Below are positions 1 to 29,013 of a stretch of DNA of 39,860 nucleotides, piece by piece (positions within the stretch are counted from its first letter, which is position 1; every line of letters starts with the position of its first letter). The stretch is from assembly GCF_001435315.1 (NCBI RefSeq), contig NZ_AZGK01000017.1, forward strand, positions 1 to 39,860, given 5' to 3'. A program made the position numbers and the translations under genes. The stretch is from Lentilactobacillus parabuchneri DSM 5707 = NBRC 107865. Its GTDB lineage: Bacteria; Bacillota; Bacilli; Lactobacillales; Lactobacillaceae. The notes under the pieces were generated by a model. It saw only the letters and a program-made list of their open reading frames with translations. It searched no databases and had not been told where the DNA came from.

Positions 1-46
1 TAATCTCGATTTAGGTGTTAAAAAGTTACCAACAGGGGGAATTATC

Positions 47-511
47 ATGAACAAGATTGTCAAGTGGATCATATCATTCGTGGGAATCTTAGTATTATCA
101 GTTACGTTCAGTTCGACGGCCAGTGCCAATCGGGTACACGATGGCTTTCCCGCCCCAATTCAAGGAAGATATTGGCGTACCACGGTCAATCAGGGGACTA
201 ACTCCGTTCCAAGACATATGTACTTTTACGCTGTTAAAGATGGCTTTGTCATTAAAAATACAGCTACTGGGACGATCAGATGCAAGTGGATGATTTACAC
301 ACACGATTACACTACATACGTACTAAACGGGTCGGAAAATAACGACCTGTCAAAAGTCGTTTGGGTCTTCATTACACCTGATAAGAATTGGAAAACTGTC
401 AAGATCGGTTATAAAATTACAGGTATAAATGGGGAGCCAAAATATCCTGCTATTCACTATCAGCATTACACAGCTACTTCAGTTTCCAAAGTAACAGCAA
501 TCGTTCACTAA
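47..511 (+). CDS. small secreted protein of unknown function
   Basis: The 154-residue product begins with a lysine-containing N-terminus, a hydrophobic core (about residues 7-24) and an Ala-Ser-Ala site near residue 27, which is a typical Sec signal peptide. The mature part is about 125 residues, rich in Tyr, Trp and Thr, with one cysteine and no membrane segment or cell-wall anchor. It is therefore probably released or loosely wall-associated. A purine-rich ribosome-binding site (AGGGGGA) sits about 6 bases before the ATG. I do not recognise a named family; similar short secreted proteins of unknown role are common in lactobacilli. The gene is followed by a strong terminator shared with the convergent downstream gene. 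It is confident as a gene, with function unknown. Confidence 0.8.
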   Translation: MNKIVKWIISFVGILVLSVTFSSTASANRVHDGFPAPIQGRYWRTTVNQGTNSVPRHMYFYAVKDGFVIKNTATGTIRCKWMIYTHDYTTYVLNGSENNDLSKVVWVFITPDKNWKTVKIGYKITGINGEPKYPAIHYQHYTATSVSKVTAIVH

Positions 512-535
512 ACATAATAAGTATAATAATCAAAA

Positions 536-573
536 ATAGAAGCCCCAGAGCAAGTTTGCTCCAGGGCTTCTAT
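536..573. terminator. bidirectional rho-independent terminator
   Basis: A hairpin with arms ATAGAAGCCC and GGGCTTCTAT encloses an inner AGCAAG/TTTGCT pairing and is followed by a T-rich stretch on the plus strand. It lies between two convergent genes and can serve both. Confidence 0.85.
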
Positions 574-613
574 TTGTTGTTATTGTTTTAGTTATTTTGT
601 TGCTAAAGTGAAA

Positions 614-1702
614 TTAAACAATTTCGAGATGCAATTGTTGATCCTTAACCCAGTGCATGCCGAGCAGAACTCTGTAGAGCACGATTGAGATAACAGCTGG
701 GACAACGATTCCCATTACCAGATAAGCAACGAACATGTTCATGTTGGTTGATGCCAGGTTAAGTGGGGCGATAAATGAGTTCAAGCCTAGTCCACCTAAT
801 GTGTAGGGTACCTTGAAACCAAAGAACATGGTTGCAATTGGTGCGGCCACGACTGCGGCAGTCATTGACGGAATTGCCAGTCGTGGGTTTGCCAGCAAGT
901 TCGGGAACTGAACCTTTGGTGTGATGAAACCCTGGGCGATATTGGCACCAAGGTTGTTTTGACGCCATGAGATGACCGTGAACCCAACGAATTGAGCGGT
1001 GGTTCCGATCAAGGCAGCCCCTGATGAAAGTGGATCAAGCATGACAGCAACTGCCAGAGCAGCTGATGAGGCAGGTGTCATCAAGAAGAGTGACCATGCT
1101 AGTGCAACAGCCATTGAACCGACGATTGGGTTGATTTGCATTGATTGGGCGATGAACGCACTCAGCCAGTTAAGTGCTGGCGTGGTGACACTTGCAAGGC
1201 CCAACCCTGCGATTGAACCGACTAAAGTTGCGGCAAGTGGAACTAACATCATATCAAGCGGCGTTTTACCGGTTAAGTATTTACCAACTAAGGCAGCAAT
1301 TAATCCGGCAGCAACGGCACTAATAGGTTGACCAGTTGTAAAGACCCCGTTTCCAGCTACTTGTGCCATTTGATTACCCGTTGCGGTTGCGGCATGAACG
1401 CCGGATGAAATGAAGTAAACGGCGTTTGCGCCAACAGTTGAGGCAATCATGGAACTAAACAGGACCAGTGTGTTGGTTTTTAATTGTGAGGCCACGGCGG
1501 CACCGAATGCTGGAGCTAAGAGCCACTGAGCAATTGAGCCGATTTGATGTAATTGTGGCCAGTTCACGAAGTTGGCAATGGTTTGGGTTAATAATCCAAC
1601 CCCTAACATAACTAGGACGGCGTTTGAGACACCGGCTGAAACTAAGTATACGTAATCTTTGACTGTCAGTTTTTCTACTGGCTTATTTGCTTCTGTATCC
1701 AT
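614..1702 (-). CDS. PTS EIIC-type membrane transporter (orphan)
   Basis: This 362-residue protein is almost entirely hydrophobic, with about 8-10 membrane segments separated by short Gly/Ala/Pro-rich loops. It resembles the stand-alone PTS_EIIC_2 type permeases found in Firmicutes. No phosphorylatable EIIA or EIIB domain is fused or encoded nearby, so it either borrows those from another locus or works as a PTS-independent transporter; its substrate is unknown. The start was placed at the second of two close ATGs (1702) because GAGG lies 8 bases upstream of it, whereas the longer reading frame has no ribosome-binding site. Two inverted repeats lie just upstream. The family call comes from general sequence resemblance, not from a diagnostic motif. 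Confidence 0.65.
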   Translation of the reverse strand: MDTEANKPVEKLTVKDYVYLVSAGVSNAVLVMLGVGLLTQTIANFVNWPQLHQIGSIAQWLLAPAFGAAVASQLKTNTLVLFSSMIASTVGANAVYFISSGVHAATATGNQMAQVAGNGVFTTGQPISAVAAGLIAALVGKYLTGKTPLDMMLVPLAATLVGSIAGLGLASVTTPALNWLSAFIAQSMQINPIVGSMAVALAWSLFLMTPASSAALAVAVMLDPLSSGAALIGTTAQFVGFTVISWRQNNLGANIAQGFITPKVQFPNLLANPRLAIPSMTAAVVAAPIATMFFGFKVPYTLGGLGLNSFIAPLNLASTNMNMFVAYLVMGIVVPAVISIVLYRVLLGMHWVKDQQLHLEIV

Positions 1703-12710: not shown

Positions 12711-12730
12711 CCTTTTTCGCTGTAAAAACA

Positions 12731-12812
12731 TCTTTCCTACGCTGGCGCTAACCAGATCAGGTTCGAAGGGTCCGTGAATGAATTCCGTCTCAGCCAAATG
12801 GCTCCCCTAATG
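12731..12812 (-). ncRNA. TPP (THI-box) riboswitch
   Basis: The minus strand carries the conserved THI elements in order: GGGGAGCC, GGCTGAGA, GGACCCTT, GAACCTGATCTGGTTAG and CCAGCGTAGGAAAG. Binding of thiamine pyrophosphate should favour the closed form of the downstream hairpin and switch thiW off. Confidence 0.97.
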
Positions 12813-12843
12813 TTATCTTGGTATTCAATTAAGTTCATAGTCC

Positions 12844-12883: not shown

Positions 12884-13756
12884 TTAAGATTTAACACGTT
12901 CCCTGACAGCCTGGTTGACCGCCGTAATCACTTGGTCGATCGGCATCTGCTGACCCGTCCATTCCAAAAAAGATCCGGCAGCTTGATTAACCAGCATCCC
13001 AATCCCATTGTATGTATGGCTCCCCTGTTTTGCGGCCGCTTTAAGAAACGGCGTCTCTAATGGAAAGTAGATAACGTCCACGACCACGTGCTGAGGGCCA
13101 AACTGTTGCATCACTTCATCTGTCACTGGACTGGCCTGGTCACCGGCCATCCCGATGTTGGTCGCATTGACAACAATTTGACTGGCCGCAATTGGCCGTT
13201 GCATGTTGACAATGTCCTCATATGGAAACACCGAAACGACATCCGACCAATTCTCCAGCTGTGCTTTAAGTGTGGCAAAGGTCGCATTGTGGCGTTTAAA
13301 GACATAGATCTTTTTGACGCCGGCATCGATCGCCGCTGAGATAATCGCCCGGCCGGCACCGCCAGCTCCTAAAACGGTCATTGTTTTATCTTCAAGTCTC
13401 ACGTTTTCTTGTTTTAGTGCATCAACGAATCCTTGGCCATCAGTGCTGTCACCCACTAAGTGACCGTTGCGATTGACAACCGTATTAACCGCGTGCAGGC
13501 GTTCGGCTCTGGGCGTGATTTCGTCTAAGAAAGCAATGACATCGGTTTTGAGTGGCATCGAAAGATTAAAGCCGCCAATATCCATAACGCGCATCGCATC
13601 CAAAGTAGCCGCAAGGCCATCAGAAGTCACATCAAACGCCAAATAGGCGCCGTTAATCCCGGAGACTTTAAAGCTGGTGTTATGAATTAGCGGCGACAAG
13701 CTGTGGGCTGCCGGATGTGCCAAAAAGCCAAATAATTTTGTGTGTCCATCAATCAT
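12884..13756 (-). CDS. aroE: shikimate dehydrogenase
   Basis: AroE reduces 3-dehydroshikimate to shikimate with NADPH. The 290-residue sequence shows SLSPLIHN (substrate-binding serines, about residues 19-26), the catalytic lysine in NLSMPLKTD (Lys 70), the catalytic aspartate in GDSTDGQGF (Asp 106; the family more often reads GDNTDG) and the nucleotide-binding loop GAGGAGRA. It is the last gene of the aro operon, 14 bases after aroK, with GGAGG 7 bases before the ATG. No clear terminator follows, so read-through into the TPP riboswitch region is possible. Confidence 0.96.
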   Translation of the reverse strand: MIDGHTKLFGFLAHPAAHSLSPLIHNTSFKVSGINGAYLAFDVTSDGLAATLDAMRVMDIGGFNLSMPLKTDVIAFLDEITPRAERLHAVNTVVNRNGHLVGDSTDGQGFVDALKQENVRLEDKTMTVLGAGGAGRAIISAAIDAGVKKIYVFKRHNATFATLKAQLENWSDVVSVFPYEDIVNMQRPIAASQIVVNATNIGMAGDQASPVTDEVMQQFGPQHVVVDVIYFPLETPFLKAAAKQGSHTYNGIGMLVNQAAGSFLEWTGQQMPIDQVITAVNQAVRERVKS

Positions 13757-13770
13757 CTGATTACCTCCAC

Positions 13771-14277
13771 CTATAGTTGAATGAATAAATGTGTCCGAAT
13801 TGCCTCAACCACTTCCAATGGAGACAGATTATCGGTTGCCACTCGGAAATCACTTACTTGTTCATATTTACGGTCACGCTGCCCTTTTAGATCAACCAAG
13901 CCATCCAGTCCCAGCTGTTTGGCAAGCGGCCGATCCGTGTCATCTTTGAGACGATTAAAAATGGTTGCCGGCAAAACATCCAGCAACACGACTGGAACAT
14001 CACTTTGTTTGAGCATCTCAAAATTGTTGGGTTGAATTGGTGTGCCACCGCCAGTCCCAAGAATGCCGTCATCATCCATTGCGGCTTCCAGCGCCTGGTG
14101 CTCTAATTGACGAAAGGCAGCTTCTCCTTCTTCGGCAAAAATCTGTTTGATTGACTTGCCTGCATTTGCGACCACGATATCATCCAGATCATGGTAAGGA
14201 ACCCCAATTTTGGCGGCCAACAAATGACCAACCGTCGTCTTGCCGCTACCCATAAATCCAACTAATATTGCTCTCAT
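13771..14277 (-). CDS. aroK: shikimate kinase
   Basis: AroK phosphorylates shikimate to shikimate 3-phosphate. The 168-residue length is normal. Visible are the P-loop GFMGSGKTT (residues 7-15), DLDD with the shikimate-binding aspartate (about residue 32), the Walker B-like GTGGGT segment near residue 76, and the lid region DRPLA. GGGAG precedes the ATG. It lies 11 bases after tyrA and 14 before aroE, so all are on one transcript. Confidence 0.95.
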   Translation of the reverse strand: MRAILVGFMGSGKTTVGHLLAAKIGVPYHDLDDIVVANAGKSIKQIFAEEGEAAFRQLEHQALEAAMDDDGILGTGGGTPIQPNNFEMLKQSDVPVVLLDVLPATIFNRLKDDTDRPLAKQLGLDGLVDLKGQRDRKYEQVSDFRVATDNLSPLEVVEAIRTHLFIQL

Positions 14278-14288
14278 AAGCCCACTCC

Positions 14289-15140
14289 CTATTCGTCTAA
14301 TGATTTGCGAATCTTCTGTGCCTTGGTAAACGTGGCAATAATTTTCTCTTCATTTCGGCTTGAAATCGCCTGCTGAAATTCAGTCAATTCTCGCTTAAAA
14401 TCGGCAATTTCTGAACTAATTTCCTCAGAATTGCTCATCATAATGGCCGTCCACATTTTCGGATCCGATGCCGCGATTCTGGTGGTACTTTTAAAGCCAC
14501 CGGCGGCTGCGGTCAAGCCAACCGGATCATTACCAACGCTATCGGCGACGGTGTTTACCAAAGTCGCCGCAATGACATGCGGTACGTGACTCAGTTCGCT
14601 AACCAGTTTGTCATGGGTTTGCGCGTCAATCATCGTCCAATCAACATTGCCAGCCTTCATCAGTTTCTGAAATTCGGAAAGTTGCTGCTTGGTTTGTGAA
14701 CCGGTTACCAGAAAGTATTTAGAACCGGAGAACAACTGTGTTGTCCCGTTTTGAGCGCCGACCAAATGCGATCCAGCCATCGGGTGACCACCTAAAAATC
14801 CAATTCCTTGTCTGCGTAAATTTTCGGCCGCTTGCATCACTTCAACCTTGGTACTGCCGACGTCAGTCACTAACAGGTTTGACTTTAATGAAAGATGCGC
14901 CAGTGTTTCAATTTGCGCGATAATCACCGACACCGGTCCGGCTAACACAATGACGTCTGCTTTTGGTGCTGCTTGAGAAAAGGGTTCGTGCTTGTTGATA
15001 ATTTGCCGGCTAAGTAAAAACGCCGCCGCATCATCATCCGGATCAGCCCCAATAATCTCAACGTCCGTTTGACTTTCTCGCATAATTCGCGCGATTGAAC
15101 TGCCGATTAGCCCCAAGCCGCTGATTAAAACCATTGTCAT
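14289..15140 (-). CDS. tyrA: prephenate dehydrogenase
   Basis: TyrA oxidatively decarboxylates prephenate to 4-hydroxyphenylpyruvate, the tyrosine branch. The 283-residue protein has an N-terminal NAD-binding fold (GLGLIGSSIAR, residues 8-18), VTDVGSTK, and the conserved GGHPMAGSH active-site block with its histidine, then the helical C-terminal domain. There is no ACT domain and no fused chorismate mutase. GGAGG lies 8 bases before the ATG. It lies 12 bases after aroA. The matching phenylalanine-branch gene pheA is not in the window. Confidence 0.95.
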   Translation of the reverse strand: MTMVLISGLGLIGSSIARIMRESQTDVEIIGADPDDDAAAFLLSRQIINKHEPFSQAAPKADVIVLAGPVSVIIAQIETLAHLSLKSNLLVTDVGSTKVEVMQAAENLRRQGIGFLGGHPMAGSHLVGAQNGTTQLFSGSKYFLVTGSQTKQQLSEFQKLMKAGNVDWTMIDAQTHDKLVSELSHVPHVIAATLVNTVADSVGNDPVGLTAAAGGFKSTTRIAASDPKMWTAIMMSNSEEISSEIADFKRELTEFQQAISSRNEEKIIATFTKAQKIRKSLDE

Positions 15141-15152
15141 TGTGTTGACCTC

Positions 15153-16463
15153 CTATATTAGTGTCGCTAAATCATCAAAGAACTGCGGGTACGAAATGTT
15201 GATACTGTCAGCGCCCTTGAGGGTCAATGGTTCCTTGACGAGCAGTGCCGCAACTGCCAAAACCATACCAATTCGATGATCACCATGACTATCCAAATGC
15301 GAATCAGTGACGTGCCAAGGCTGACTGCCGTCGATGATAAAACCGTCCGGCAAATCTTTAATCGCAATTCCCAACTTGGTAAATTCATCGACAATTGCCG
15401 CGATTCGATCCGTTTCCTTAACTCGGAGCTCACCTGCGCCGGTGACTTTGCTGACGCCATTTGCCTTTGCTGCTAACAGGGCGACCAATGGCAATTCATC
15501 AATGACTGCCGGAATTTCATCGGCGCCAATTTCAACCGGCTTTAAGTCCGCAGATTCAACCGTCAGATCCGCAGTCGGCTCGCCTGAGTGATTCTCGTGG
15601 CTCAGCGTGATCTGTCCGCCCATCCGCTTTAAAATGTCGTATAGCCCCGTTCTGGTCTCATTCATCCCCACATTCGTGAGTTTCACTTTCGAATGTGGCA
15701 CCAGGCTGGCCGCCGTGATAAAAAATGCGGCTGAAGACATGTCGCCTGGAACGTTAAGGGTCAGACCAGTCATCGTTGGGTTCGGATGAACCGTAATCGT
15801 AACGTCGTCGGCTTCAGTTTCAACCTTGGCACCAAATGCCTTTAACATGATCTCAGTGTGATTTCGAGTTGGCTGCTTTTCAACAATTGTTGACGTCCCG
15901 TCGGCTTGCAACGCCGCTAAAATCAGTGCGCTTTTGACTTGAGCACTGGCAACTTTGAGGTGATAATCCACCGCATGTAAGGATTTCCCGTTAATCATCG
16001 CTGGTAGATGGCCATCGGTCACCCGAATGTCGGCTCCCATTTCGCCTAAGGGATCACTGACCCGTTTCATTGGCCGTTTAGATAACGATGCATCCCCAAC
16101 TAATTTTGTTTGAAACTTTTGCCCAGCCAGTAACCCCATTATCAACCGGGTTGTTGTGCCGGAATTTCCCATATCCAACGCATCGGCCGGCTGCTTCAGT
16201 CCATGAAGGCCGACGCCTTTAATTGTGACGGTTTCGCCGTCGCGCTCAATTGGAACGCCTAACTGTTGAAATGCTTTTAAAGTTGATAAACAATCTTCAG
16301 CTGTCAAGAAATGACGCAGGATTGTGGTCCCCTGGCTGATTGCACCGAACATAATGCCCCGATGAGAAATACTTTTATCACCCGGAACTGCCAGTTCGCC
16401 GTGCAGTCCTCCCTGGAGGTTTCCTTGAAGTGCTTGATTAGTTTGACTTTTAATATTGACCAT
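15153..16463 (-). CDS. aroA: 3-phosphoshikimate 1-carboxyvinyltransferase (EPSP synthase)
   Basis: AroA joins shikimate 3-phosphate and phosphoenolpyruvate to give EPSP. The 436-residue sequence carries PGDKSISHRG near the N-terminus (phosphate and PEP binding), MGNSGTTTRLIMGLLAG (PEP loop) and RVKETDRI toward the C-terminus. PEP-loop spacing and length are normal. GGAGG lies 6 bases before the ATG. The gap from aroC is 9 bases, consistent with cotranscription and translational coupling. Confidence 0.96.
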   Translation of the reverse strand: MVNIKSQTNQALQGNLQGGLHGELAVPGDKSISHRGIMFGAISQGTTILRHFLTAEDCLSTLKAFQQLGVPIERDGETVTIKGVGLHGLKQPADALDMGNSGTTTRLIMGLLAGQKFQTKLVGDASLSKRPMKRVSDPLGEMGADIRVTDGHLPAMINGKSLHAVDYHLKVASAQVKSALILAALQADGTSTIVEKQPTRNHTEIMLKAFGAKVETEADDVTITVHPNPTMTGLTLNVPGDMSSAAFFITAASLVPHSKVKLTNVGMNETRTGLYDILKRMGGQITLSHENHSGEPTADLTVESADLKPVEIGADEIPAVIDELPLVALLAAKANGVSKVTGAGELRVKETDRIAAIVDEFTKLGIAIKDLPDGFIIDGSQPWHVTDSHLDSHGDHRIGMVLAVAALLVKEPLTLKGADSINISYPQFFDDLATLI

Positions 16464-16472
16464 TGGAACCTC

Positions 16473-17639
16473 CTAGAATTGTTTGATTTCTTCGCGGTAT
16501 GCCGTCAGTTGCTCCTGCAATCGCTGCACGTTATCCGCATCAAATTTATCCGTCAGTGCTTTGGCAAGTTCAATGGCGACCACACTTTCGATCACGATTG
16601 AAGCCGGCACAATTGCCGTGGTGTCGGAACGCTCGACACTGGCTTTTTTGACTTCCTTCGTTTGAATATCAACGCTTTGAAGGGGTTTATATAGCGTCGG
16701 AATTGGTTTCATCGCTGCTTTGACAATAATTGGCATGCCATTGGTCATTCCGCCTTCAAATCCGCCCAAGTGATCGGTGTTTCTGTAGAAACCGTCTTCT
16801 TTATCCCAATCAATTTCGTCCATGACTTGGCTGCCGAAGCTGGTCGCAGCTTTGAAGCCGTCGCCAATTTCAACCCCCTTCATCGCATTAACGCCCATCA
16901 CTGCCGCAGCCAGCTTGCCGTCCAATTTGGTATCCCAGCTGATATAACTACCGAGTCCGGCTGGAACATGAGTGGCCACCACGCGGATAATGCCGCCCAG
17001 TGTGTCCCCATCTTTTTTTGTCTGGTCGATCAATTCGTGAATGTCGTCCACTTTTGATTGGTCAATCATTCGAAGGTCGTTTTGGCTAATTTCGGATTCG
17101 ATCTTTGAGACGTCCAACTCTTGGTTGTCATCAGTCGAAATCTGGCCAATTTGTTGAACATAGCCAACGATGTCGATGCCAACCTGGGCCAATAGCTGCT
17201 TACAAACCGCTCCGACAGCCACTCTAATAGCGGTTTCTCGTGCTGATGAGCGTTCCAAAACGTTTCGCAAATCTTGGTGGCGATACTTCATCCCACCTAC
17301 CAGATCCGCGTGACCTGGACGGGGACGTTCGACTTTTCGCAAGGTATTCTCGGCCGTCTCTGGGCTTACCGGATCCATAATTTGATTCCAGTGAGCGTGA
17401 TCCCGATTTTGGACCACCATCGAGATTGGCGATCCCAGCGTGATACCGTGGCGAACCCCGCCGGTAATTGTGACCTGGTCGTGTTCAATCTTTTGTCGGT
17501 TACCGCGGCCATAGCCACCTTGGCGCTTTTTCAACTGCTCGTTAATGGCGTCAACGTCCAAATGCAATCCGGAAGGCACGCCCTCAATAATTCCGGTTAA
17601 TTGTGGTCCGTGTGATTCTCCAGCCGTTAAGTAATTCAT
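16473..17639 (-). CDS. aroC: chorismate synthase
   Basis: AroC removes phosphate from EPSP to make chorismate and needs reduced FMN. The 388-residue sequence begins with the signature GESHGPQLTGIIEG and contains RPRPGHADL, the SSARETA block and a C-terminal RSDTTAIVPASIV. All are typical of the flavin-binding active site. Its ATG shares one base with the stop codon of aroQ (TAATG), a strong sign of translational coupling. Confidence 0.96.
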   Translation of the reverse strand: MNYLTAGESHGPQLTGIIEGVPSGLHLDVDAINEQLKKRQGGYGRGNRQKIEHDQVTITGGVRHGITLGSPISMVVQNRDHAHWNQIMDPVSPETAENTLRKVERPRPGHADLVGGMKYRHQDLRNVLERSSARETAIRVAVGAVCKQLLAQVGIDIVGYVQQIGQISTDDNQELDVSKIESEISQNDLRMIDQSKVDDIHELIDQTKKDGDTLGGIIRVVATHVPAGLGSYISWDTKLDGKLAAAVMGVNAMKGVEIGDGFKAATSFGSQVMDEIDWDKEDGFYRNTDHLGGFEGGMTNGMPIIVKAAMKPIPTLYKPLQSVDIQTKEVKKASVERSDTTAIVPASIVIESVVAIELAKALTDKFDADNVQRLQEQLTAYREEIKQF

Positions 17640-17980
17640 TAGTCATTCTCCTTTATGTCGTTGTCAGTTGCGTCATCCCCAGCTAAATCATGCTGATAGT
17701 CGCGGGAATTTTTCAAGATTTCTTCAAAAATATTTCGTAAGTATTTTTCGGTGGTGGGGTCTGGATCAAGTGAGACAACCCTTTCCAGCACCTGCTGTTC
17801 GCGCCCGCTGTCAAGGACTGGTAGGTCGGCTGTTTCTTTAATCTTGCCAATCAAAGCCGAGGTCTGAAATCGTTGTCTCAGTAAATCGATTAGTTTCTCA
17901 TCTATCTGATTAATTTGATTTCGCGCCGCTGTGATCGCCTCGCTATCATCAATTGATGGTCTTGAAACGTGATTTGTCAT
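17639..17980 (-). CDS. aroQ: chorismate mutase, AroQ type
   Basis: This converts chorismate to prephenate. The 113-residue all-helical sequence has the AroQ pattern: INQIDEKLIDLLRQRF (residues about 24-39) with its arginine and aspartate, IGKIK, and a distal SGREQQVLERV segment. It is a single-domain enzyme without a fused dehydrogenase or dehydratase. I placed the start at ATG 17980, 8 bases after GGAG; a GTG three codons earlier overlaps that binding site. It is the first gene of the aro operon and follows the aromatic leader and terminator at 18002-18246. Confidence 0.92.
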   Translation of the reverse strand: MTNHVSRPSIDDSEAITAARNQINQIDEKLIDLLRQRFQTSALIGKIKETADLPVLDSGREQQVLERVVSLDPDPTTEKYLRNIFEEILKNSRDYQHDLAGDDATDNDIKEND

Positions 17981-18001
17981 TATGAACACTCCTTTTCCAT
18001 G

Positions 18002-18036
18002 AAAAAAACCAGCTAGATAAAGTCTCCAGCTGGTTT
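18002..18036 (-). terminator. attenuator terminator before aroQ
   Basis: Minus-strand arms AAACCAGCT and AGCTGGTTT are followed by a run of seven T that ends 21 bases before the aroQ start. It interrupts the transcript between the leader peptide and the operon, so it must be conditional. Confidence 0.85.
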
Positions 18037-18160
18037 ACAAAATTCGTAAAGAATGATAACTTACCCAGCCAGACTATAACGTCTAGTGGGCTCAACAAAG
18101 CATTGACTCTGCACCACTTGGACGCGAACGCTCAATTTGCGTCCGCCTCGAAAGCGGACA

Positions 18161-18220
18161 CTACTTAAAGTAGGCATAGTCAAAATAATAGGCTGTTTGA
18201 GTTGCAGGTTGCTTTGTCAT
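18161..18220 (-). CDS. aromatic leader peptide of the aro operon
   Basis: The 19-codon frame reads MTKQPATQTAYYFDYAYFK then TAG. Six of its last nine residues are Tyr or Phe (4 Tyr, 2 Phe). AGAGGA lies 10 bases before the ATG. It starts about 26 bases after the predicted transcript start. A second leader of identical length and a closely similar C-terminal half lies at 25581-25640. It probably acts in cis through translation rather than as a protein. Confidence 0.85.
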   Translation of the reverse strand: MTKQPATQTAYYFDYAYFK

Positions 18221-18252
18221 AATTATCAATTCCTCTCGTAAAAGTTGTATTC

Positions 18253-18281
18253 ATTAAAACATATTAGAAATTATTCGTCAA
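18253..18281 (-). promoter_or_regulatory. promoter of the aro leader
   Basis: On the minus strand TTGACG (18281-18276) is followed after 17 bases by TTTAAT (18258-18253). The spacer and flanks (AATTTCTAATATGT) are nearly identical to those of the promoter at 25675-25703. Confidence 0.85.
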
Positions 18282-18330
18282 CCCTAATAATTTACTCATT
18301 GGATTTTAATTCCGAAATATTTCCGGATAT

Positions 18331-19596
18331 CTAAATTGCGGCACTAACTTGGTTCGACATTTGTGGTTGCTTACTTGCCTCAACACCAGCCTCTGCGTGA
18401 ACTTTGGTGCCATTTTGATAAACGTCTTTGTCATGTTGGATCACGCTAATATCATCAATCGGATTTTCCTGCATTGAAATAAAATCGGCATAGTTGCCGG
18501 CGGCGATTTGGCCGTACTCATCGTCAACATGCATTGCTCGGGCACAATTGATAGTCGCCGAGTCAATTGCTTGTGCAGGGGTCATCCCAGCCTTTTCAAC
18601 GTATAATTCCATCTCATAGGCACTTTCATTTCGAAAGCCATTGTAAGGTGTTCCGGCATCCGTCCCCATTGCAATTGGAATTCCAGACTGAACGGCTTTC
18701 GTAATGCTTGCAAAATGCTTCTTGATATTCACGATCACTTTTTCACGGGCCCAATCCGGTACGGTATTTTCACCATATTTATAGATGGCGTACATTGCGT
18801 TCATCGTAGGAACAATCACTGTTCCGTGGGCTTTCATCATTTCGATGGTCTCATCATCAATATCGAAAGCATGCTCGATGGTATCGAAGCCAGCTTCAAC
18901 CGCTTCTTTGACCCCGGCATTGCCCTGAGCATGGGCTGCAGCCGTCTTTCCTTTGTGATGTGCCTCAATGACGGCCGTTTTGGCTTCTTCAGACGTAAAT
19001 TGAATATCATCGGGAGTCTCACCATTTTTAAGAACGCCACCGGTAACCATCATTTTGATGTTATCGACACCGTTTTTCATTGCCTGGCGAACACCTTTTC
19101 TCACTTCATCTACGCCATCAACTTCATAACCGCCGCCGGAGCCATGACCGCCCGTAATTGAAAATGCTTTTCCGGATGTCATAACCTTGGGGCCTTTAAT
19201 CCATCCCTTTTCCTGCATCTTTTTAACTTCGATATCAATATCATAGGCCGCACCCACGTTTCGGATGTAAGTAATGCCATGATTAATGGCGTCTTCCATA
19301 TTTCTGACAGCAAACATCGTGTTAAATTCACGGGAGTCTGAGTGGCGTTGCTCCTTGCCATCGTTCCACCAATATGTTGGAATACTGGTGATGTGAGTGT
19401 GAGCGTTCATGATCCCAGGCATGACGAACCGGCCATGCATATCGGAAACTTCATCAATCACTTGATTTGTGGAACTACCGTTGCCTACTTCCACAATTTT
19501 TCCGGTATCGGTGTCAACGACCATATGCTGATGGGCGATGAAGTCCTGTTTTTCATGGTTGTAAATTGCGACATTCGTATAATTGATTTTTGTCAT
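18331..19596 (-). CDS. metal-dependent amidohydrolase family protein
   Basis: The 421-residue protein has the amidohydrolase superfamily barrel: the N-terminal metal motif NAHTH (about residue 80), NIKMMVTGGV with a candidate carbamylated lysine, AAHAQG, TIEHAFDID, and the C-terminal GTDAGTP with the catalytic aspartate. This set fits the imidazolonepropionase-like/prolidase-like branch that includes Xaa-Pro dipeptidases and related deacylases. The substrate cannot be assigned. There is no signal peptide. AGGAAGAG precedes the ATG. A small frame (19553-19681) with a strong ribosome-binding site overlaps its start. It lies upstream of the aro leader promoter on the same strand. Confidence 0.88.
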   Translation of the reverse strand: MTKINYTNVAIYNHEKQDFIAHQHMVVDTDTGKIVEVGNGSSTNQVIDEVSDMHGRFVMPGIMNAHTHITSIPTYWWNDGKEQRHSDSREFNTMFAVRNMEDAINHGITYIRNVGAAYDIDIEVKKMQEKGWIKGPKVMTSGKAFSITGGHGSGGGYEVDGVDEVRKGVRQAMKNGVDNIKMMVTGGVLKNGETPDDIQFTSEEAKTAVIEAHHKGKTAAAHAQGNAGVKEAVEAGFDTIEHAFDIDDETIEMMKAHGTVIVPTMNAMYAIYKYGENTVPDWAREKVIVNIKKHFASITKAVQSGIPIAMGTDAGTPYNGFRNESAYEMELYVEKAGMTPAQAIDSATINCARAMHVDDEYGQIAAGNYADFISMQENPIDDISVIQHDKDVYQNGTKVHAEAGVEASKQPQMSNQVSAAI

Positions 19597-21699: not shown

Positions 21700-21985
21700 G
21701 AAACACAAAAAGCGCCCAATCAGAAGTTAAACTTCTAAAAGGACGCTTACACGCGGTACCACCTTCATTGTGAAATTGACATTTCACCTCTCACGTACGA
21801 CCGGTCGACTCGGTATACGTTGGCGCTGTATTGGGCGCACCCTAGTGACTCTAAACGAATCACCGTGCTCAAAATTGACTTTAAGTAATTAAGAAATTAC
21901 GCCTTCACAGATCACGACGCTCTCTTGGAATTTCTTAATACCGACTTCTCAATTTCTCTTAGCACTTTCTCATCGATATCTAATG
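21700..21985 (-). ncRNA. T-box leader upstream of oppA (probably valine)
   Basis: The minus strand contains the T-box core GGTGGTACCGCG (in 21750-21763), then a terminator with arms AAGCGTCC and GGGCGCTT (21748-21708) and a T run. Upstream is stem I, with AAGAGAGCG-like and CTGTGAAGG elements. Aligning the 3' side of the specifier loop (AAA-GTC-A before a helix and GAGC) with that of the well-known glyQS leader gives GTC, valine. The TGGT bulge would match tRNAs with A73, which valine tRNAs have. The specifier is a manual alignment. Confidence 0.9.
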
Positions 21986-23336: not shown

Positions 23337-24092
23337 ATGAGTGGAAAAGTAACCGTTAATCAAACAACTTTTGAGCCCGGCTCGACTAAAGTGGCTGTTC
23401 CAATCATGGGACAGACGCCCCAAGAAGTACTCAGCCAGGCTAAAAATGCAATCCGGCAGCATCCCGATGTGATTGAATGGCGAATCGATTATTTTTATGA
23501 CGCCTTCGATCAGGAAATTTTTCAAAGCACCGCTAACAGTTTAAGGGAAATCCTGGGAGGAACAGTTCTTCTGACAACCTTCCGAACAACTGGTGAAGGC
23601 GGAAAGGGCCAGGTGCCGGATTCAGAATACATCAAACTCTATCACTGGATTTTACTTAATCATCTAACGGATATGATCGATATCGAACTTCATTTTGCCG
23701 AAGAAACGATTGCTGAATTAGCTTACTTGGCGCACGCTCACCAAATTAAAGTTATCTTGAGTGTCCACGAGTTTGTTGGAACCCCGCCAGAGCTTGAAAT
23801 TATCAACGTTCTTGAACAAATGGAAAATCAAGGCGCAGACATTGCCAAAATTGCGACGATGCCAAAGAAGTTTAAGGACGTCCTCACGCTAATGCGAGCG
23901 ACTGCCACTGAGTCTGCCAAGCTGACAATCCCAATCGTTGCCATCTCAATGGGCCCGCTTGGCAAGTTATCAAGAATCGCCGGCCCACTATTTGGATCTG
24001 TTATGAGTTTCGCAACGGTTGGAGAAGCCTCGGCGCCCGGCCAGTTAGCAATTGAAGATTTGCGCCAACAAATGACTTTAATTAACAAATAA
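23337..24092 (+). CDS. aroD: 3-dehydroquinate dehydratase, type I
   Basis: AroD converts 3-dehydroquinate to 3-dehydroshikimate through a Schiff base. The 251-residue sequence shows EWRIDYF (residues 47-53), the general-base histidine in SVHEF (His 144), the Schiff-base lysine in ADIAKIATMP (Lys 171), and a C-terminal GEASAPGQL. All fit the type I enzyme. It is apart from the aro operon, which lacks this step, so it completes that pathway between dehydroquinate and AroE. AAAGGA precedes the ATG. It is convergent with the MFS gene that carries an aromatic leader, and they share a terminator. Confidence 0.95.
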   Translation: MSGKVTVNQTTFEPGSTKVAVPIMGQTPQEVLSQAKNAIRQHPDVIEWRIDYFYDAFDQEIFQSTANSLREILGGTVLLTTFRTTGEGGKGQVPDSEYIKLYHWILLNHLTDMIDIELHFAEETIAELAYLAHAHQIKVILSVHEFVGTPPELEIINVLEQMENQGADIAKIATMPKKFKDVLTLMRATATESAKLTIPIVAISMGPLGKLSRIAGPLFGSVMSFATVGEASAPGQLAIEDLRQQMTLINK

Positions 24093-24128: not shown

Positions 24129-25385
24129 TTATTCGTCCTTCGATTGTCCACCATCAACAGGTGCTGCCCCAAGATGAAGCAAATTCATCACTGAATGGCC
24201 AGCCACTGAAAATACATTTCCAGTCCCGATTGCCATTGCGGTTACTACTACCAGCACGGTACCAACCAAGCCGATTAAAACGTCGAAATTCATGACTGAT
24301 TGGATGCTGATTTGAGATAGTACGCCGGTCACAATCGGAATCGTGAAAGTGGCAATGCTGCCAAAGGTCATGTAGGTACCGGTAATAACGCCTTTATGAG
24401 TTGGAAACATCTTGAGCAGAACGTTCAGCGCAACCTGCAAGACGCCGCCTGCTGCGGTAAATCCGAATGTAAAGCAGGCAATTGAAGTAAAAATAACCGA
24501 TGATGCATTGGCAACTGTGAGTATTGCAATTAACGAAATGGTGTTCATCACCACCAACAATTTGGTTTCCGTAAACTTGAGTTTGAGCAGGATAAACATC
24601 ACGATCACCCCGCTAATGGAGCCGATGCTGTAAAGCGAAAGCAATCCGTGGGAAACAAGTGAGCTGTATCCCAAGTCTTTGTTGGCAAATAAACTAATCC
24701 ATTGAGTGAATAAGATCATAATCGCCATGGTCGTGTACCCGTATACGGCAAGAGCAATTGTCGCAATTACCCGCCGGAATTTTGAGAGTGACTGGTGGGC
24801 TTCACTAAACGTTTCATCAACATTGTTCCGATCTGGGAAGTGTGCGCCTTTCAAAATGAACAAGTTCACGATTAAAACCAACAATGCACCGATAAAGGAC
24901 CAACCGAACCACAGATGGCGAGCTTCCAGAGTGGCAATGAATAGCGGCAGAATGAATTCCCCCATCGACATGAAGGCTTTAATAAAGACGTTGGAAGCAC
25001 TTGAGTTGCCACCCATTTCGACGAAGGTCGGGTAAGTTCCTGAATCAAGGGCAGAATTGGCAACACCGGCAATAATCGCAAACAAGTAGGCAATAGCGAT
25101 ATTGTGAGTGAACGGAATCCCGATAAAGAAGACCATGTAACTCAACGTCCCGGTAAGGACCAGCATTCGACGGCCAAATCGGTCTGACAGGTAGCCAAAT
25201 AGAAAGTAGGCAATTAACTTACCAATCCCAATTCCGGAGATGACGTACGAGACGGTTGCGATTGGAACACCCCAAAAGCCCCCAAGTGCCTGCATGTTCT
25301 GCGTCAAGATGATTAAGCCGATTCCGTGAACCAGGTAGTTCAAGTATAAAGCCATTGATAGTCGACGATTATTTGATTTTGTCAT
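24129..25385 (-). CDS. MFS transporter under aromatic leader control
   Basis: The 418-residue protein has about 12 membrane segments and the MFS loop motif (GYLSDRFGRRMLVL, about residues 68-81). It has no exporter-specific motif that I recognise. The substrate is unknown, but three facts point to aromatic metabolism. Its leader peptide is rich in Tyr, Trp and Phe. Its promoter and leader copy those of the aro operon. Its neighbour is aroD. Candidate substrates are shikimate, quinate, dehydroshikimate or an aromatic amino acid. The start was placed at ATG 25385, 10 bases after GGGAG, since a GTG three codons earlier is too close to that site. Confidence 0.88.
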   Translation of the reverse strand: MTKSNNRRLSMALYLNYLVHGIGLIILTQNMQALGGFWGVPIATVSYVISGIGIGKLIAYFLFGYLSDRFGRRMLVLTGTLSYMVFFIGIPFTHNIAIAYLFAIIAGVANSALDSGTYPTFVEMGGNSSASNVFIKAFMSMGEFILPLFIATLEARHLWFGWSFIGALLVLIVNLFILKGAHFPDRNNVDETFSEAHQSLSKFRRVIATIALAVYGYTTMAIMILFTQWISLFANKDLGYSSLVSHGLLSLYSIGSISGVIVMFILLKLKFTETKLLVVMNTISLIAILTVANASSVIFTSIACFTFGFTAAGGVLQVALNVLLKMFPTHKGVITGTYMTFGSIATFTIPIVTGVLSQISIQSVMNFDVLIGLVGTVLVVVTAMAIGTGNVFSVAGHSVMNLLHLGAAPVDGGQSKDE

Positions 25386-25416: not shown

Positions 25417-25451
25417 AAAAAGCCAGCCGGATATTAGAAATCCAGCTGGCT
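25417..25451 (-). terminator. attenuator terminator before the MFS gene
   Basis: Minus-strand arms AGCCAGCTGGAT and ATCCGGCTGGCT (one mismatch) are followed by TTTTTATTT, 32 bases before the start codon. It occupies the same place as the terminator before aroQ. Confidence 0.85.
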
Positions 25452-25580
25452 AATTTCTGATGCACTCGCTCAAGAAATTATATCAACCCAGCTAGACTCT
25501 AGCGTCTAGCTGGCAACAACAAAGTTACGACTTTGCCCAGGTTAGACGCGAACGCGTTGTGCGCCCGCATCTCCCGGGCG

Positions 25581-25640
25581 CTACTTAAACCATGCATAGC
25601 CGTAATAATAGGCATTCAGTTGTTGCAAATGAGTATTCAT
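25581..25640 (-). CDS. aromatic leader peptide of the MFS gene
   Basis: The 19-codon frame reads MNTHLQQLNAYYYGYAWFK then TAG. Its final ten residues align without gaps to AYYFDYAYFK of the aro leader, with a Trp added. GGGGAG lies 9 bases before the ATG. Codons for four Tyr, one Trp and one Phe fall within nine positions. Confidence 0.85.
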   Translation of the reverse strand: MNTHLQQLNAYYYGYAWFK

Positions 25641-25674: not shown

Positions 25675-25703
25675 ATTAAAACATATTAGAATTATTTCGT
25701 CAA
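25675..25703 (-). promoter_or_regulatory. promoter of the MFS aromatic leader
   Basis: On the minus strand TTGACG (25703-25698) is followed after 17 bases by TTTAAT (25680-25675). It is the near-twin of the promoter at 18253-18281, including the spacer. Confidence 0.85.
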
Positions 25704-25744
25704 CTCTAATATTATTTTAATTTTATTTGATGGTCTTTTAAAAA

Positions 25745-28768: not shown

Positions 28769-28979
28769 AAAAAAGTCCCCGACAACCAGACTCGCTGGTT
28801 ATCAGGGACGTATTACCGTGGTTCCACCCTTTTTCGCACTTCAGTCAAACAACCAAAATGCCTCGTTTGGAATACATATTTAAGCTGAAACACACAACTC
28901 CGAGCGCACTTTCGGAAAACACCTGCCCGCCCTTTCACTTACAGCGGTCGCTTTAATCAGGCATTAACTTACTCTTCTC
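28769..28979 (-). ncRNA. T-box leader of the amino-acid ABC operon (probably cysteine)
   Basis: The minus strand carries the T-box core GGGTGGAACCACGG (within 28815-28829) and a terminator with arms GTCCCTGATAACCAG and CTGGTTGTCGGGGAC followed by six T (28809-28769). Stem I shows the loop E pair AGTA and GAA. After GAA the specifier strand reads AG-TGC-G before CTC, giving TGC (28908-28906), cysteine. The bulge is TGGA, expecting a tRNA with U73, which tRNA-Cys has and tRNA-Val (the GTG register) does not. Confidence 0.9.
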
Positions 28980-28984
28980 TTCAA

Positions 28985-29013
28985 CATTGTGAAATTCAAA
29001 TAATGACTGTCAA
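28985..29013 (-). promoter_or_regulatory. promoter of the cysteine T-box operon
   Basis: On the minus strand a perfect TTGACA (29013-29008) is followed after 16-17 bases by CACAATG, a moderate -10. Confidence 0.5.

Follow-up and report, generated by a model that had tools for sequence, protein, structure and literature searches.

The aro leader and its operon

The window, by which we mean the whole 39,860-nt stretch of Lentilactobacillus parabuchneri DNA analysed here, carries on its minus strand a presumed operon of aromatic amino acid genes, preceded by a short leader ORF, a series of potential hairpins and an intrinsic terminator. In the direction of transcription, the main features are as follows.

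18253..18281, minus strand: predicted promoter, read from the sequence, with TTGACG (18281-18276), a 17-nt spacer and an extended -10 element, TG-T-TTTAAT (18261-18253)
18231..18237, minus strand: putative ribosome-binding site (RBS) of the leader ORF, GAGAGGA, ending 10 nt 5' of the ATG; read from the sequence and similar in the genus alignment
18161..18220, minus strand: leader ORF MTKQPATQTAYYFDYAYFK*, supported by the sequence and the genus alignment
18002..18036, minus strand: intrinsic terminator, with a stem at 18036-18006 (segment G, 18036-18025; segment H, 18017-18006) and a U-run to 18002
12884..17980, minus strand: presumed regulated operon of chorismate mutase, aroC, aroA, prephenate dehydrogenase, aroK and aroE, from NCBIfam matches

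The leader ORF runs from ATG to TAG (18220-18161) and has 19 codons, with four Tyr and two Phe among its last nine residues. A sequence-only reading of this DNA had described a 19-residue leader with its own RBS and a terminator 21 bases 5' of the first gene, and both descriptions stand: the U-run ends at 18002 and the chorismate mutase gene starts at 17980. Three hallmarks of an attenuator are present by sequence, namely a translatable leader ORF with an RBS, control codons for the end products, and a terminator before the first gene. The promoter is predicted by reading the sequence and its elements are kept in the genus alignment; a generic promoter scan called no promoter at the aro leader. 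Among the operon genes, aroC, aroA and aroE match above the curated cut-offs, and chorismate mutase, prephenate dehydrogenase and aroK below them. The final gene was at first guessed to be pheA, a name dropped on finding that its NCBIfam match is aroE.

The RNA from 18221 to 18000 folds at -79.5 kcal/mol, compared with -53.6 (sd 3.9) in shuffled sequences (z -6.7). Where the sequence-only reading had seen at least four mutually exclusive pairings, a competing chain of seven is now proposed: A:D, B:C, C:D, D:E, E:F, F:G and G:H. The segments that lie 5' of the terminator are these.

18166..18181, minus strand: segment A, the control codons Asp-Tyr-Ala-Tyr-Phe, partner D; from covariation
18154..18161, minus strand: segment B, from the last base of the stop codon, partner C; from covariation
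18139..18149, minus strand: segment C, partner B or D; from covariation
18105..18131, minus strand: segment D (GCGTTCGCGTC..GCAGAGTC), partner A, C or E; from covariation
18080..18090, minus strand: segment E, partner D or F; from covariation
18063..18075, minus strand: segment F, partner E or, as antiterminator, the 5' arm of the terminator; from covariation for E:F and duplex energy for F:G

No family in Rfam 15 matches the element above its gathering score. A scan of the entire window gives only a TPP riboswitch at 12716-12818 (minus strand), which lies before thiW, and a search of 17950-18350 at E up to 1 returns a single match, an sRNA on the opposite strand with E 0.41. Two T-box leaders that score under the gathering score also lie in the window, both on the minus strand: one at 21736-21969 (70.5 bits) before an oligopeptide-type binding protein gene and one at 28801-28993 (53.4 bits) before an amino acid ABC transporter operon.

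A second copy in the window

A search of the source genome with the aro leader uncovered a second copy, absent from the sequence-only reading, at 25640-25421 on the minus strand with 70% identity. It precedes a transporter gene of the major facilitator superfamily (MFS).

25581..25640, minus strand: second leader ORF, MNTHLQQLNAYYYGYAWFK*, from the own-genome search and the genus alignment
25486..25580, minus strand: second hairpin relay, segments B-F, matched by covariance model R1 at 138 bits and R2 at 81 bits (models described below)
25421..25451, minus strand: terminator of the second copy, from the sequence
24129..25385, minus strand: MFS transporter gene 3' of the second copy (Pfam MFS_1)

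In the source genome R1 finds the two window copies alone at E up to 0.01, and R2 finds the same two, its next match having an E of 0.9. A type I dehydroquinase gene (aroD; 23337-24092, plus strand) adjoins the MFS gene on the opposite strand. Both window leaders also carry an inverted repeat, ATTAG-N16-CTAAT, over the -35 element (18263-18288 and 25685-25710, minus strand), which is possibly a repressor operator.

Conservation and distribution of the leader

DNA matches to the leader were obtained in 17 of 60 genomes searched, the source genome included. Counted from the nearest ATG, each of 23 copies from the genus (L001-L016 and L019-L025) has a 19-codon ORF, and in L014 and L023 an additional in-frame ATG lies slightly upstream. 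The first half of the peptide is variable and its end, ..YYFDYAYF or ..YYYGYAWF with near variants, is conserved; conservation of the aromatic codons in relatives is a check that the sequence-only reading had proposed. Five more divergent places in the genus (L079, L093, L114, L120 and L121) have ORFs of 18 to 22 codons.

The wider search made use of two covariance models, whose E-values are rough. R1 was built on alignment A2, which holds the 23 genus rows and one row, L017, from another genus, and R2 was built on the scaffold alone, from the stop codon to segment F (alignment A4, below). Within the family, R1 matched 120 of 350 genomes sampled and 25 of 40 genera; a first sample of the order yielded 14 of 295 genomes, four of them in a second family, f5. 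With R2, matches were found in 35 of 76 genomes and 19 of 21 genera of f5, at up to five places per genome, and in 111 of 395 genomes and 42 of 80 genera of the order Lactobacillales. A class-wide sample gave nine matching genomes in 299, two of which lie outside the order, with the match in G689 standing before a trpX-type gene and that in G800 before an MFS-like gene.

The R2 places that were read comprise all but two of the 75 in f5 and an order-wide part consisting of loci L258 and L261-L269 and stretches L278-L297. At 83 of the 107 distinct places, an RBS-bearing ORF ends where the match begins and has at least four of its last ten codons in one class, as happens in 0.5% of 5350 shuffles. 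R2 takes in nothing 5' of the stop codon and so does not see the codons, which makes the control codons found just before its matches an independent check. Many of the 24 places missed by the strict RBS rule show a suitable ORF by a looser rule, and L191 and L234 have three aromatic residues. No ORF occupies the fixed place in L238; the leader of L134 is doubtful and lacks a terminator by rule, and L269 denotes this locus too; and L244, with neither leader nor gene, was taken as a false hit.

Leader codons and downstream genes

The genes behind aromatic leaders encode or resemble MFS transporters, chorismate mutase-aroC, aroE, aroA, aroK, pheA-type, trpX-type and NhaC-type proteins, and others. 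In f5 the same scaffold also occurs with Ile-rich leaders (..IISIIR*; MTVTTLTVMQTPLIISIIR, MKKSVLNVQNIISIIIR) before ilvA, ilvB, ilvE and livJ-type genes. Representatives were named by hmmscan and the rest by tblastn against these; the ilvA, ilvB, ilvE and aroE representatives score above curated cut-offs and the livJ-, trpX- and pheA-type ones below.

An automatic count over 222 distinct leaders placed aromatic leaders before 179 aromatic-or-trpX genes and no branched-chain amino acid (BCAA) gene, and BCAA leaders before 4 aromatic-or-trpX and 17 BCAA genes. The four discordant leaders (L072, L077, L194 and L243) proved to be frames misread by the automatic caller, the true frames being aromatic. 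With these four corrected the counts become 183 and 0, and 0 and 17, so leader class fits gene class in all 200 classable leaders, though all 17 BCAA leaders come from family f5 and are not independent events; a single exchange, or a few, may account for all of them. The other 22 of the 222, all aromatic, were left out because their genes were of other kinds or unassigned. Among them L133 stands before a BcaP-type permease, a match below cut-off to a family named for branched-chain substrates, and is a possible disagreement between leader class and gene class.

The leader codons also bear on how some of these genes are annotated. The last ten residues of the 70 trpX-type leaders (assigned by tblastn; L173, L275 and L120 are examples) hold 129 Tyr, 210 Phe and no Trp, and the three trpX-type representatives scanned score under the TrpX cut-off. 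The absence of Trp codons questions the Trp annotation at these loci. At five NhaC-type loci (L126 and L130 among them) the leaders are nearly all Tyr, with 21 Tyr and one Phe in the last ten residues, suggesting that the gene behind them encodes a tyrosine transporter.

Two further arrangements were observed. In L042 an aromatic leader lies upstream of a gene (1-1404, minus strand) for an MFS transporter that carries a chorismate mutase domain at its C-terminus (MFS_1 + CM_2). Many other loci may hold fusions of this kind, to judge from the chorismate mutase matches that tblastn gives there at about 1.2-1.3 kb. L021 (genome G006) keeps an MFS-type leader, its terminator region deviates and no MFS start follows in the alignment; this is perhaps an orphaned leader.

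Covariation of the exclusive pairings

Alignment A4 was made by plain MAFFT from sequence only and holds 79 scaffold rows, out of 83 non-redundant scaffolds that remained once near-duplicates (likeness of at least 0.93) were removed; L131, L132 and L134 had been left out earlier as odd, and the step from 83 to 79 rows left out L092, L095, L135 and L171. On A4, C:D is paired in 93.6% of 864 cells with 62 double changes against 17.9 (sd 7.4) in shuffles, D:E in 98.3% of 538 cells with 56 against 15.6 (sd 8.2), and B:C and E:F together in 91.6% of 1410 cells with 156 against 42.0 (sd 6.0), while partners slid out of register pair in 18-54%; these figures are to be read with the structures drawn from the same sequences, the slid controls generous and the cell counts inflated by relatedness. 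Alignment A3, of 95 distinct rows, was fitted to a model holding A:D, B:C and E:F. On it A:D is paired in 89.6% of 1000 cells with 77 double changes against 22.2 in shuffles, and D:E, which was not in the fitting model, has 74 against 17.4. The covariation scores of C:D, D:E, and B:C with E:F on A4, and of A:D on A3, were each reached by none of 500 shuffles.

All told, five pairings covary in the family-wide alignments, which answers a second check that the sequence-only reading had suggested. Segments C, D and E each show covariation with at least two partners, which is what mutually exclusive pairing calls for. On A2, the change from a Tyr to a Trp codon in MFS-type leaders is accompanied by double changes in two A:D pairs; C:D and D:E are nearly invariant in this genus alignment and gain no support from it alone. 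On A4, neither C:D nor D:E shows more further pair types than shuffles do.

The adopted register of C:D, GAUGCGGACGC:GCGUUCGCGUC, was found by reading the same sequences. The first one tried, GGACGC:GCGTCC, was rejected because across the family it did not surpass shuffles: 83.8% of cells paired, and 174 of 500 shuffles attained its covariation score. Also dropped was a hairpin within D (CAAAG:CTTTG), which looks plausible in the genus but, by eye, is short in L017 and shifted in L023 and L025.

The pairing of F with the terminator arm was approached through duplex energy. Among 228 leaders examined, 205 are distinct and have a terminator, the rest having none by rule or being repeats. In 146 of the 205 the upstream region forms a stronger duplex with the 5' arm of the terminator than its shuffled versions do at p<=0.05, and in 85 at p<=0.01; the median z is -3.0. 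That F is the best partner of the arm was read in some alignments, the count of 146 applying to the upstream region as a whole. In the window the MFS copy has a z of -3.8 and the aro copy a z of -1.7, which is not significant (p 0.09), nor is the value for the pheA-type leader L211 (p 0.40).

Folding as a function of ribosome position

The RNA up to segment E from the 79 loci of A4 was folded with the bases under a ribosome hidden, the mask reaching 13 nt past the start of the A site; taking 10 or 16 nt instead moves the outcome by one codon. The mean probability of D:E is 0.11 without a ribosome. It lies at 0.66-0.76 when the A site is 9 to 5 codons before the stop (0.73-0.76 at 7 to 5), falls to 0.60 at 3 codons and 0.27 at 2 codons before it, and is 0.10 at -1 and 0.18 at the stop codon itself. 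All three states fit in 59 of the 79 loci, where the ON intermediate arises solely with the ribosome on the control codons, and the test fails in 20, the MFS copy of the window (L002) among them. For the aro copy the probability is 0.0 without a ribosome, 0.67-0.70 on the control codons, and 0.07 and 0.08 at -1 and at the stop.

Tyr or Phe is the commonest leader residue at positions -9 to -5, -3 and -2, with Ser and Ala leading at -4. In this folding model, then, the ON stretch spans most of the control codons, and the last of them, at -2, falls in the OFF part of the mask profile. When the two window copies are folded at full length to equilibrium, the terminator is favoured (0.89-0.98) at every ribosome position and ON is not distinguished from OFF, so the switch would have to be kinetic and decided during transcription.

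A proposed mechanism and its alternatives

We hold with considerable confidence that the element is best read as a transcription attenuator of the ribosome-mediated type, with charged tRNA-Tyr and tRNA-Phe as its signals. The sequence-only reading had likewise proposed ribosome-mediated attenuation, and that proposal agrees with the codons of the leader, the spacing, the covariation, the kinds of genes behind it and the folding under a ribosome mask. What has been computed are the ORF, its codons, the terminator, their conservation, the covarying exclusive pairings, the match of codons to genes and, in three quarters of loci, the dependence of D:E on ribosome position; translation, termination in cells and the response to starvation are what we infer.

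In this attenuator, the leader would be translated by a ribosome while RNA polymerase transcribes it. With no ribosome, A:D would form and enclose hairpin B:C, E would pair with F, and G would be left to pair with H as the terminator, leaving the operon OFF. When Tyr and Phe are plentiful, a ribosome reaching the stop codon would cover B, and C:D, E:F and G:H would again give OFF. When either amino acid is short, a ribosome stalled on its codons would cover A and not B, allowing B:C and D:E to form; D:E would leave F free to take the 5' arm of the terminator, and transcription would continue into the operon (ON). The scaffold would be modular in that other codons could re-address the switch, for example to isoleucine.

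Three other explanations were weighed, each improbable. The first is an arrest peptide, in which the nascent chain and free Tyr or Phe in the ribosome would halt translation and the codons would matter only through the peptide they encode. TnaC, where translation is halted by the nascent peptide with Trp, works in this way. The end of the peptide is indeed conserved in the genus beyond its aromatic residues, and a halt at the stop codon would likewise give OFF. The non-aromatic residues, however, sit in segment A, and the A:D pairing accounts for them. Moreover, the 222 leaders have 149 distinct strings of last nine residues in which Tyr, Phe and some Trp are interchanged, and Ile, Leu and Val take their place before Ile-type genes; a ligand-specific arrest would hardly survive such exchange, and we consider it very unlikely.

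Less probable still is that an RNA-binding antiterminator, or tRNA itself as in a T-box, reads the hairpins, the ORF being incidental. T-boxes are abundant in this genome, with 47 matches, of which 11 lie above the cut-off and two fall within the window. None of the 47 is at the aro leader, however, in keeping with the sequence-only reading that no T-box core is present there, and TRAP (PF02081) has no match in the genome at E up to 0.001 in a search whose Bacillus subtilis control was positive. The conservation of ORF, RBS, stop-codon position and codon class across families also argues against an incidental ORF. The least probable alternative, a plain terminator with a repressor site at the promoter and no attenuation, draws on the inverted repeat over the -35 element. 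In the genus, 22 of the 23 copies have this repeat, compared with 9% of shuffles; among the other family members 19 of 97 have it, roughly double the chance rate, and elsewhere 10 of 108, no more than chance (shuffles 9-10%), while the relay persists. Repressor control and attenuation may coexist.

The attenuator reading leads to a broader proposal, which we put forward as somewhat more probable than its contrary: a single ancestral Lactobacillales relay would be a modular counterpart of the T-box, its codons exchanged on a kept scaffold (from Tyr/Phe to Ile/Leu) and revealing the true substrate of the gene behind, and the trpX-type systems would serve Phe or Tyr and not Trp. The usual account of amino acid control in lactic acid bacteria is one of T-boxes plus repressors. 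To this would be added widespread translated attenuators with a covarying scaffold, fronting genes of aromatic synthesis and transport and, in one family, isoleucine genes. Their leader codons offer a direct handle on the substrates of poorly annotated transporters, and because nature has swapped codons while keeping the scaffold, the logic of the switch can be tested and the element could serve as an exchangeable sensor.

Comparison with known attenuators and T-boxes

The trp, phe and his attenuators of enterobacteria combine a leader ORF enriched in end-product codons with exclusive hairpins and an intrinsic terminator, and the his leader forms a six-segment relay. The element described here has in common with them the leader ORF, the exclusive hairpins and the terminator before the first gene. 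It differs in having eight segments, in that the control-codon segment pairs with the distant segment D and encloses B:C, and in that a single scaffold serves operons for different amino acids in a Gram-positive order rich in T-boxes.

The sequence-only reading had regarded the aro leader as an independent solution in lactobacilli, a view that finds no support in that form: several families of the order carry the scaffold, also with Ile leaders, and leader-peptide attenuation in Firmicutes has been published for branched-chain genes and proposed for histidine genes (PMC5864092, PMC5794164, PMC2965389, PMC9413887). According to these papers, Rli60 is an ilv attenuator of Listeria tested with a reporter and mutants (PMC5864092), and the Staphylococcus aureus ilv leader is an instance of leader-peptide attenuation (PMC5794164, where predicted lactococcal and streptococcal branched-chain leaders are also cited). 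Both share the leader-peptide principle with the aro element but front branched-chain genes and have other leader sequences, the likeness to the aro element being one of description. Histidine leader peptides have been proposed in bacilli and other Firmicutes, in PMC2965389 and PMC9413887, as replacements for T-boxes; they too are leader peptides in place of T-boxes, but with His codons and in other lineages. The Acholeplasma motif uORFC-13-1 is presented, in PMC8632094, as a proposed Phe-dependent uORF and terminator before aroF, with 24 sequences from Acholeplasma and environmental DNA. Set against the aro leader by description, it is alike in its Phe uORF and terminator before an aromatic gene, and the gene differs.

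A description of the present element was not found in the literature searched, which was mainly open-access, and an earlier one may exist in print, for instance among the lactococcal and streptococcal branched-chain leaders mentioned above; within that literature, the order-wide modular scaffold and the long relay look new. T-boxes provide amino acid control in the same bacteria. Two papers report a tested Trp T-box at trpX of Streptococcus suis (PMC9382623) and list T-boxes before chorismate mutase genes (PMC2494555). The T-box takes its specificity from a codon, as the aro relay would, but in the T-box the RNA itself reads uncharged tRNA, whereas here, at a site with no T-box match, the codons would be read by the translating ribosome.
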